64,000 nucleotides of DNA, taken from NCBI RefSeq assembly GCF_001282685.1, contig NZ_LN875034.1:55533-119532 (forward strand). The letters run 5' to 3'. The DNA comes from Niameybacter massiliensis (GTDB taxonomy: Bacteria; Bacillota; Clostridia; Lachnospirales; Cellulosilyticaceae). The stretch's first letter is position 1, and each line of letters starts with the position of its first letter. Positions 49,618-51,955 of this stretch are shown one piece after another. Both the position numbers and the translations under genes were made by a program. The notes below the pieces were generated by a model that saw only the letters and a list, made by a program, of their open reading frames with translations, ran no database searches and had not been told where the DNA came from.

Positions 49618-50610
49618 ATGCATAAGCCAAAAGTATGTATTATCTTTACAGGTGGGACTATTTCAATGACAGTAGATGACACGATAGGAGCGGCTATTCC
49701 AACGTTGTCAGGAGAACAAATTTTATCTATGGTATCAAATATAGATAAAATAGCAGATATAGAAGTAGTAAATTTTTGTGAGATTCCAGGTCCACATATG
49801 ACCTTTAATAAGTTACTAGAACTTAAAAATCTTATTAAACAAACATTAGATAGACAAGATATTACAGGTGTTATTGTTACACATGGAACAGATACATTAG
49901 AAGAAACAGCGTATTTCTTAGATCTTACTATCAGACATCATAAACCCGTTGTTGTAGTTGGAGCAATGCGTAATAGTTCAGAACTCGGCTATGATGGCTC
50001 AAGTAATTTAGCAGCAGCAGTATGTACAGCAATTTCACCTAAAGCTATTGATAAAGGTGTACTCGTTGTGTTAAACAATGAAGTTAATATTGCTTCAGAG
50101 GTAACAAAAACAAATACATTATCTCTTAACACATTTCAATCCCCATATGGACCACTTGGGATTATTGACACTAATGATCTGATTGTTTATAGAGATATTG
50201 CATTTAGACAACATATAGATACAAATACTGTTGAACGTAGAGTAGACTTAATTAAAACAGTACTAGATATGGATGATAGATTTATTAGACTTTCAGTAGA
50301 TGCAGGTGCAAAAGGCATTATCGTAGAAGCAATGGGGAGAGGGAATCTACCTCTTAAAATGCTAGAAGGCGTGAAATATGCCCTTTCAAAAGATGTAGTA
50401 GTTGTTATTGTATCAAGATGTAGTTCAGGTCGTGTATTTGAATCGTATGGCTATGCAGGTGGTGGCAAAGAACTCTCAGACTTAGGTGCCATCATGGGTG
50501 GTGAAATGAGAGGACCAAAAGCACGTATCAAATTGATGCTTGGTTTAGGAAAGACACAAGATATAGAAGAAATTAAAAAACTCTTCTCAGAAGAGAGTTA
50601 CGTACTATAA
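49618..50610 (+). CDS. ansA: Asparaginase
   Basis: 330 aa. IIFTGGTISM near residue 8 holds the catalytic threonine; VTHGTDTLEETAYF near 94 is the second. Residues GAMRNSSELGYDGSSNL and the C-terminal half match the L-asparaginase/glutaminase family. It hydrolyses asparagine to aspartate and ammonia in the cytoplasm. No signal peptide. RBS AAGGGGTGA. Its terminator is at 50609-50643. Confidence 0.9.
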   Translation: MHKPKVCIIFTGGTISMTVDDTIGAAIPTLSGEQILSMVSNIDKIADIEVVNFCEIPGPHMTFNKLLELKNLIKQTLDRQDITGVIVTHGTDTLEETAYFLDLTIRHHKPVVVVGAMRNSSELGYDGSSNLAAAVCTAISPKAIDKGVLVVLNNEVNIASEVTKTNTLSLNTFQSPYGPLGIIDTNDLIVYRDIAFRQHIDTNTVERRVDLIKTVLDMDDRFIRLSVDAGAKGIIVEAMGRGNLPLKMLEGVKYALSKDVVVVIVSRCSSGRVFESYGYAGGGKELSDLGAIMGGEMRGPKARIKLMLGLGKTQDIEEIKKLFSEESYVL

Positions 50611-50643
50611 AAAGAGGACTGTAAATATACAGTCCTCTTTTAT
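50609..50643 (+). terminator. Terminator of ansA
   Basis: AAAAGAGGACTGT pairs with ACAGTCCTCTTTT around AAATAT, then TATG. Confidence 0.9.
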
Positions 50644-50664
50644 GATTTTAGGTAATAAATATTT

Positions 50665-51305
50665 GGTTAAGTGTGAGGGCATGTAGGCAAGCTTATTATA
50701 TTCCAACTTTTAGTCCTCATCTTTTAAGACAGGCTAAGTTCATTTCATCAAACTAACGGTCAAAACTCAGAAAAGAAGTTCACTTTTCTTCAGACATTTC
50801 CCTAAAACCAGTTTGATTCCATTCGCTAAGCCTCTCTAAAAAGTCTGCGGAGGAAGTTTCCATACAATAACTTACCTTACAGCCCATCACATCATAACCC
50901 CTTGTGGTAGAAAGATAGCTAAACTTTCTAAGTAGAAAAGGGCGGTAATGCGTGGGTGACCTCCATGGAGCTTTTTTCGAGGATGGACTTAGAATATAAG
51001 CTACATGCAGTTTAGCAATCTCTCTGACGGTGCAGTCCACAAAGTGAGGGAGGCATATTTGTAGACTTGATTCAGTGAGCTGGATAGGTGCATTCTCCGG
51101 AACCTGCCTACGTAGCTTTCAGATAAGAAATGTTCGAAATGAAAAAATAATGGTTTTAGGTGTGCTGTCTGAACGAAGTGAGTTCACACCGTTATTATTT
51201 TTGAATGAGTTACATTTCTCTGAAAGCGAAGTGAAGCAGGTGAAGGAGAATCTAACTAACCAACTCACGTAAGTAGACTAAATATAAGCACCTCCTCACT
51301 TAACC
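50665..51305. ncRNA. Large structured element of about 640 nt, RNA or small mobile element
   Basis: The 640-base gap between ansA and the transaldolase gene has no convincing gene. GGTTAAGTG (50665-50673) and CACTTAACC (51297-51305) pair end to end, extended by GAGG/CCTC. Inside are ATCAAACT/AGTTTGAT (50747/50810), AGAAAAG/CTTTTCT (50769/50783), TAGAAAG/CTTTCTA (50908/50924), TGGACT/AGTCCA (50984/51034) and a long arm at 51115-51227 of four stacked helices (9, 7, 9 and 6 bp). Base composition is more GC-rich than its flanks. Flanks AAATATTT and AATTATTT differ at one base, which could be a target duplication. Strand is undecided. Confidence 0.6.
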
Positions 51306-51307
51306 AA

Positions 51308-51955
51308 TTATTTATTTTGCAGTGTAGCCCAGTCAGCTAAGAAGCGTTCAATCCCACTTGCAGTTAAAGGATGTTTAATCATCTGTAGAATAACAGAGTA
51401 AGGTACGGTTGCAATATGAGCACCGGCTTTAGCTGCTTCAAGAACGTGGATAGGATGGCGTACACTAGCAGCAATAATCTCTGTTTGAATACCATGGATT
51501 TCAAAGATTTCAACAATGTCTTGGATAAGTCCCATGCCATCAAAGCCAATATCATCTAGGCGTCCAATAAATGGACTGACATAAGTAGCACCTGCACGGG
51601 CTGCTAAAAGTGCTTGTGTTGCAGAGAAAATAAGGGTTACATTTGTTTTAATGCCTCTAGAAGTAAGTATTTTAGTAGCTTTAAGACCTTCTTCAGTCAT
51701 AGGAAGTTTGATAACAATATTCTTATGAATGGCTGCTAACTTTTCAGCTTCTTCTACCATTTTAGGTGCTTCTAGGCTAATGACTTCAGCACTAATAGGC
51801 CCATCCACAATGGTTGTAATCTCTTGAATAACTTCTTCAAAAACTAACCCTTCTTTAGCAATCAATGAAGGATTAGTAGTAACGCCACAAATGACACCTA
51901 ATTCATATGCTTTGCGAATATCTTCAGTATGTGCTGTATCAATAAAAAATTTCAT
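51308..51955 (-). CDS. Transaldolase/fructose-6-phosphate aldolase (TalC-like)
   Basis: 215 aa, the short TalC/FSA type. [22 protein letters not shown], the Schiff-base lysine in [14 protein letters not shown] (near 85), and [15 protein letters not shown] are the family blocks. It interconverts sugar phosphates in the non-oxidative pentose phosphate route, or cleaves fructose 6-phosphate. No terminator separates it from the structured element that begins two bases beyond its stop, so its mRNA probably runs into that element. RBS AAAGGAGAT. Confidence 0.92.

Follow-up and report, generated by a model that had tools for sequence, protein, structure and literature searches.

A two-armed, gene-free repeat at the 3′ end of a transaldolase gene in Niameybacter massiliensis carries a hairpin tip found in several bacterial phyla

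Results

The window analysed here is the whole stretch of 64 kb, part of a source genome of 4.57 Mb (G000, 11 contigs, 98% complete). At 50654–51316 it holds a two-armed, gene-free repeat, assigned to neither strand, whose boundaries are common to other copies in the genome. Upstream lies a neighbour outside the element, the intrinsic terminator of an asparaginase gene identified by Pfam (50610–50641, + strand), which ends 12 nt before the element's left end. The element is bounded by terminal inverted repeats of 20 nt: the left one, AATAAATATTTGGTTAAGTG (50654–50673, +), is 95% complementary to the right one (51297–51316, +), and the latter contains the stop codon (51308–51310) of the transaldolase gene (Pfam TAL_FSA). 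A sequence-only reading of this DNA had placed a structured element with complementary ends exactly at the end of the transaldolase gene. That placement is correct and the pairing of the ends is real, even longer than proposed, whereas the ends given (50665 and 51305) were wrong and are corrected to 50654 and about 51316 by comparison of the genomic copies. The near-identical 8-bp flanks AAATATTT and AATTATTT, which had been offered as a target duplication, lie within the terminal inverted repeat, and copies elsewhere have them too.

The claim that the element has no gene is borne out, the longest open reading frames in the window copy being 86 and 65 aa long and neither forming a convincing gene. 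The shorter of these frames (51075–51272, +) runs across the right arm and renders its tip as ...LSERSEF...; peptides of this kind may surface as spurious annotated proteins. The folding of the element is far beyond chance on both strands, with z-scores of −6.7 (+ strand) and −7.9 (− strand) and none of 20 shuffles reaching so low an energy on either. The compound arm noticed earlier at 51115–51227 proved to be the core of a larger right arm with a basal stem (51075–51268, +; inverted repeats I2, I5 and I9). Its part recognised by the covariance model R2, described below, is 51103–51246 (+), the structured strand reading rightward and so outward, and its tip, TGTCTGA-ACGAAGT-GAGTT (51166–51184, +), closes on a GAA triloop. 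The left arm, also delimited by R2 (50700–50857, −), has a structured strand that reads leftward, again outward; its tip, read from the sequence (50764–50796, −), is TGTCTGA-hairpin-GAGTT with a 7-nt loop. Between the arms lies a central module without assigned strand (50858–51102), which is exchanged or absent in other copies.

When positions 50600–51400 were used as a query against the source genome, 49 nucleotide matches were obtained, which after merging of pieces by hand correspond to the window and 29 other places, full or partial, several of them fragments. The copies have a sharp left end, AATAAATATTTGGTTAAGTGTGAGGGC, in common and a right end of one of two kinds, ...CACTTAAACAAATATTTATT or ...CACTCCATAAAATATTTATT; the 25-nt left end occurs at 19 places including the window (with up to 3 mismatches), in addition to 3 inverted right ends. 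A left part of about 270 nt is common among them; the centre varies, being exchanged, enlarged or missing, and the right half comes in two kinds, the copies parting company between query positions 326/329 and after 396. Two short copies (L028 and L030) consist of the left part and the right end only, and two others (L033 and L035) keep only 42–58 nt of the left end. No target duplication was detectable in 16 copies (128 settings, best z 2.3), the ends of 3 of the 16 having been misplaced by one or two bases, a shift that the tested offsets cover. Neither did an autonomous relative with the same ends appear in this genome, all 22 left-end and 9 right-end pattern matches lying in known copy places, and the longest open reading frame overlapping any genomic copy is 104 aa. 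The proposal of a small non-autonomous mobile element is thus upheld by the shared-end copies, and by an occupied and an empty site described below, but not in its target duplication. Descent from a DNA transposon with terminal inverted repeats, as an ordinary MITE-like element with incidental interior palindromes, would fit the terminal repeats, the many copies and the lack of a gene. Such an origin is nevertheless improbable given the lack of a target duplication and of any further place with these ends, and it is strained by the covariation reported below, the arms being conserved and covarying in lineages where no such terminal repeats are seen.

The gene context was classified for 27 of the 30 places by simple ORF calling (L026, L029 and L036 were left out). 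All 27 copies are intergenic or overlap a gene end only; 9 lie in convergent and 18 in tandem gaps, and none in divergent gaps, which make up 35% of the gap length in the window. The chance of such an absence is about 1e-5 by gap length and 2e-4 by gap number, and the copies in this genome sit at the 3′ ends of genes. A neighbouring reading frame ends 2–16 nt inside the element in 10 of the 27 copies, as the transaldolase does here, and in 16 a terminator-like hairpin lies 8–49 nt away on at least one side, a count made without a control for terminator density. Group IIC introns target terminators, and a retroelement moved in like manner by a reverse transcriptase could account for these hairpins, as well as for the end-fragments L033 and L035, which resemble truncations. 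This route is very unlikely because RVT_1 has no match either in the copy-rich source genome or in G245, a genome with 84 exact copies of the tip; in addition, the window gave no Rfam match to a group II ribozyme, and inverted arms would be hard to make from one RNA.

A nucleotide search of 58 relatives returned only short matches to the tip region of the right arm, in two genomes, so a covariance model was needed. An alignment (A1) was made of 12 right arms from a single sub-family, whose right-arm type differs from that of the window, and gave the model R1; 9 of the 46 pairs in A1 are changed on both sides, which exceeds every one of 500 shuffles. At E ≤ 0.001, R1 had matches in 7 of the 24 family genomes searched, among them the source genome. 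From these, 40 matching stretches were taken, including 7 more distant arms from the source genome, and the resulting alignment to R1 (A2) comprises 50 arms from three genera, 30 of them from a single genome, G002. In A2, 43 of the 46 pairs change on both sides, and the covariation score is 0.634, as against 0.189 for shuffles and no more than 0.117 with slid partners; A2 was fitted to the structure and so leans towards it, an advantage that the slid controls lack, and the margin is very large. The sequence-only reading was right to suspect a selected fold: compensatory changes are numerous among the homologues. A second model, R2, was built from A2 and includes no copy of the window's element family, its structure and members having been found through R1, itself built from that family. 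Searched with R2 at E ≤ 1, the 64-kb window gives two matches and no more, at 51103–51246 on the + strand (66.0 bits, E 1.3e-15) and at 50700–50857 on the − strand (61.2 bits, E 2.9e-14), E-values that by the tool's own statement are rough. Because these are the only two and lie on opposite strands, the element consists of two homologous, outward-reading arms in inverted orientation, such arms being 140–230 nt long.

An Infernal search of the window against Rfam, at the gathering threshold and with E up to 10, yielded nothing above any family threshold. This result bears on the first suggestion of the sequence-only reading, one large ornate RNA of the OLE, ROOL or GOLLD type spanning the whole element, which the very low folding energy and the closing terminal helix would suit. 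With two inverted arms whose wobble pairs favour opposite strands, and which occur alone elsewhere, we regard such an RNA as hardly credible.

With R2 at E ≤ 1e-4, arms were found in 33 of 392 genomes of the order and in 15 of 398 genomes drawn from the phylum, both samples containing the source genome and no more than eight candidates per genome being scored. The most conspicuous part of the arm is its tip, TGTYTGA-hairpin-GAGTT, present in 87 of 90 related arms. The exact tip string TGTYTGAGCGNAGCGAGTT occurs 159 times in 25 of the 392 genomes of the order, against no occurrence of the reversed string used as a control; 84 of the 159 are in G245 and show no overall strand bias there (45 vs 39). 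In named GTDB genomes the tip string lengthened by one base is found in at least 117 stretches, where about four would be expected by chance (our own estimate, for even base composition). The tip is common to genomes of several bacterial phyla: among the matches listed, the titles include Variovorax, Ralstonia, Luteimonas, Parabacteroides, Sphingobacterium, Flammeovirga, Fusobacterium, Desulfobacula and Cellulosilyticum ruminicola JCM 14822, and span Bacillota, Bacteroidota, Pseudomonadota and others. The listed stretches contain 140 tips, of which 120 could be folded with both flanks. Among these 120 the flanks form a hairpin with a median z of −4.8 relative to shuffled flanks, z lying below −3 in 92 and above −2 in 16. 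These flank folds, rather than a covariance model of the phyla concerned, lead us to infer that tips in distant phyla belong to arms of one and the same kind.

Ten of the at least 117 tip-bearing stretches were compared with Rfam at the gathering threshold and gave no match, and the exact core pattern of the window's sub-family did not occur in named GTDB genome contigs, among which the source genome is possibly not included. Six viral contigs (L276–L281) carry the exact tip. In the open-licence PMC literature, a search with the tip sequence gave no relevant report, the matches listed being on eukaryotic topics, and searches for Cellulosilyticum with noncoding RNA, or broader, gave nothing; a systematic survey of stem-loops has been published (PMC2267715).

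A palindrome acting only as a duplex would not prefer a strand, so equal numbers of G.T and A.C departures from pairing are expected. The arms instead pair preferentially on the outward-reading strand. In A2, G.T fills 202 cells and A.C 13, and in A3, a set of 43 matches in 20 more loci, the counts are 104 and 21; dropping columns rich in G.T shrinks the asymmetry (to 61:13 and 63:21, respectively), and A.C exceeds G.T in none of the 90 sequences, with 8 ties. In the source genome the G.T:A.C ratio on the + strand is 34:16 for 12 right halves of one kind, 7:0 for 6 right arms of the window's kind and 10:28 for 23 left arms, that is, 28:10 on the − strand. RNA folding energies are lower for the outward strand in 49 of 50 arms, by 17 kcal/mol on average. 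Part of this strand bias could stem from the strand having been chosen by the model, a choice of which the wobble counts in the source genome and the 120 named-genome occurrences, folded with the tip removed, are independent; among the latter, drawn from the matches listed, 91 favour the sense strand and 28 the other, with 1 tie.

An asymmetry of the G.U type together with covariation is a classic mark of RNA, and the arms could be RNA elements, either an outward-transcribed structured noncoding RNA or a 3′ regulatory hairpin, transcribed from inside the element or by read-through and dispersed by a DNA route. Covariation and wobble asymmetry suit RNA and DNA equally; the small loops of the tip point to DNA. 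The 53 distinct tips comprise 22 triloops, 14 tetraloops and 17 longer loops. In DNA, mini-hairpins of the GNA and GNNA types have been described as extraordinarily stable (PMC4686876), and GNNA and GNAB loops are stable DNA counterparts of the RNA GNRA loop (PMC8373063). Of the distinct triloops 13 are GNA and 9 are not, while all 14 tetraloops are GNNA or GNAB, with GNRA accounting for only 2 of them. The right arm of the window closes on GAA, and its left-arm tip is among the longer loops and is not of the small DNA type. Since most small tip loops belong to the DNA-stable classes, folded single-stranded DNA is the likelier form rather than RNA, on a small sample of 36 distinct small loops from partly related sequences. 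Nor were promoters enriched ahead of solo arms (1 of 49, the same as in the mirror control), which also speaks against RNA elements.

Arms are found singly or in pairs, and the pairs are typically in (−,+) order, with the sense strands outward, as in all 10 two-arm loci among the 20 loci in G002 and in all 6 pairs less than 600 nt apart in G245. The exceptions are (+,+) neighbours in L137 and L135 and, among the matches listed, inward pairs in two Luteimonas records (L165 and L233). An array of alternating arms (−,+,−,+ ...) with repeat units of about 560–740 bp is present in G328 (L133, 2713–5170). All 26 R1 matches in G002 fall at 0.18–0.74 Mb or 3.29–4.49 Mb of the 4.71-Mb chromosome, zones possibly making up the half nearer the origin, provided that the origin is where the numbering begins. 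At three places in the same genome (L072, about 1430–1850; L077, about 940–1390; and L079), a two-armed element contains or adjoins a second repeat without a gene (GGGATTCGGATTCGTGGCC... in L077).

In genomes of the order the arms are mostly near gene 3′ ends, and the rule is weaker outside the source genome, divergent gaps holding 9 of 90 arms and 9 of 91 tips. Among 51 solo arms, a gene 3′ end within 100 nt faces the outer end in 20 and the inner end in 5, and a solo arm that closely abuts a gene 3′ end is mostly antisense to that gene, an orientation that counts against RNA elements. At one site the element's presence can be compared between species. In G002 a two-armed element begins directly after the stop codon of a thiE-like gene; in the source genome the thiE- and thiD-like genes (Pfam TMP-TENI and Phos_pyr_kin) overlap with nothing between them. 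The site is thus occupied in one and empty in the other, which shows past gain or loss rather than current movement because the species differ.

In two species belonging to the same genus, a further arm separates a galE-like from a galT-like gene; all 73 of its predicted pairs are identical, and the differences between the species are, by eye, denser in the flanks. No compensatory change is to be seen in these two orthologous arms because they are nearly identical, and their preservation would agree with a functional RNA. Taking these observations with those on loops, promoters and orientation, we consider RNA elements a possible but doubtful explanation of the arms. Galactose genes (an epimerase, and galT by Pfam) adjoin arms in L138 (2340–2494 and 4838–4991) and L140, from two genomes of one genus (G170 and G096), and in the window's own genome an arm fragment (L029, 4086–4389) adjoins a galT homologue.

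A mobilising protein was sought among the neighbours of the arms. Clustering of neighbour proteins of arm loci and of named-genome tips revealed no recurrent mobile-element neighbour: the largest cluster, of 7 loci, consists of AraC-type and response regulators (five members scanned) and the next-largest of ABC transporter parts (three members scanned), and around the named-genome tips, among the matches listed, the largest clusters span 4 loci and are by eye tRNA synthetases and ABC ATPases. A crude scan of 505 neighbouring reading frames for an HUH motif found none. Where arms lie about 1.5 kb apart (in G078 and G012), the genes between them were considered as a possible transposase and rejected, being an M29 peptidase, a transglutaminase-like protein and one other with no Pfam match at E 1e-10.

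Searches of 20 chosen genomes for Y1_Tnp (PF01797) and RVT_1 brought out no partner. Y1_Tnp is present in 14 of the 20 and had no match in four tip-bearing genomes (G328, G061, G350 and G163). The source genome encodes a Y1_Tnp-like protein of roughly 300 aa (C10:578644–578976, 44 bits) that could be a distant relative of TnpA_REP; Y1_Tnp-like proteins of similar length are found in G002, G008 and G019, the last of which has no R1 or R2 match.

Discussion

On balance we favour, with modest confidence, a non-autonomous mobile repeat resembling a REPIN, whose two inverted arms act as strand-specific folded single strands. In this genus the unit would carry short terminal inverted repeats outside the arms and an exchangeable centre between them. 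Each arm would work as a fold of one single strand, as the wobble asymmetry suggests, and the DNA might become accessible as a single strand at replication forks or in an intermediate of transposition. The tip, with the internal loop formed by TGTYTGA and GAGTT, would be the recognition site of a putative trans-acting protein, which may excise, copy or insert the unit downstream of genes, by analogy with TnpA_REP and REP hairpins. The mobile unit would then be the pair of arms, from which single arms would derive, and insertion next to a terminator or stop codon would be either tolerated or targeted. Against a REPIN-like repeat stand the neighbours, which include no mobilising protein, the four tip-bearing genomes lacking Y1_Tnp, the arms in divergent gaps outside the source genome and the neighbouring pairs that are not in (−,+) order.

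More tentatively, the arms may be part of a bacteria-wide class of signals in which one particular strand of DNA folds and presents a shared tip (TGTYTGA, a mini-hairpin often closed by a DNA-stable GNA, GNNA or GNAB loop, and GAGTT). A putative widespread protein or host machine would read the signal and so let gene-free repeats spread to gene 3′ ends in unrelated phyla; we hold this broader proposal to be somewhat less probable than its converse. A covarying fold with a sharply conserved, multi-phylum tip, no Rfam match and no relevant report among the open-licence papers searched by tip sequence points to a recognition event perhaps not yet named, and the single 20-nt tip offers a direct handle for finding the protein partner. 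With this element one could also test in which form, folded DNA or RNA, the dispersed palindromes of bacteria are maintained. The tip, shared by many kinds of bacteria, hints at an uncatalogued, widespread folded-DNA (or RNA) signal.

The element is of the dispersed-palindrome kind and has no Rfam match. In size and in the density of its helices it resembles OLE, ROOL and GOLLD RNAs, from which it differs in matching no covariance model and in being made of two units that lie on opposite strands. With MITEs, and with modular repeats of the BOX and bcr type, it shares modularity, multiple copies, the lack of a gene and inverted ends; in contrast to them as they are generally described, the element here has large covarying arms, a multi-phylum tip and no target duplication. 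Terminal inverted repeats link it to transposons and MITEs; no target duplication was detectable in 16 copies, and pattern searches of the source genome brought out no autonomous relative with the same ends. Integron attC and other folded single-strand recombination sites are strand-specific, folded imperfect hairpins, in which attC sites, by their usual description, have conserved base boxes where the arms here have a conserved tip. With group IIC introns there is no such correspondence, neither a group II ribozyme in the window nor RVT_1 in the source genome or G245 being found.

Judged by likeness of build, the nearest analogue is the REP/BIME/REPIN system with TnpA_REP. REP sequences are dispersed extragenic palindromes whose inverted doublets, REPINs, form a mobile unit, and one strand of the REP is recognised as a hairpin by TnpA_REP, or RAYT (PMC8266576, PMC3116915). 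They differ from the arms in their length of 20–50 nt, in a conserved tetranucleotide tag, usually GTAG, of which no counterpart was recognised by eye at the arm bases, and in a linked TnpA_REP (Y1_Tnp) gene, no linked Y1 transposase having been found for the arms. The arms, for their part, share one tip across phyla, and the family in the window has terminal inverted repeats. By size, tag and linked Y1 gene the element thus stands apart from REP/REPIN, and by its many-copy palindromes and inverted doublets it belongs beside them. Like REPs and REPINs, the arms are dispersed, extragenic, imperfect palindromes, single or in inverted doublets, non-autonomous and gene-free, and the strand-specific recognition of REP hairpins in single-stranded DNA would, by analogy, have its counterpart in the outward-reading strands of the arms.
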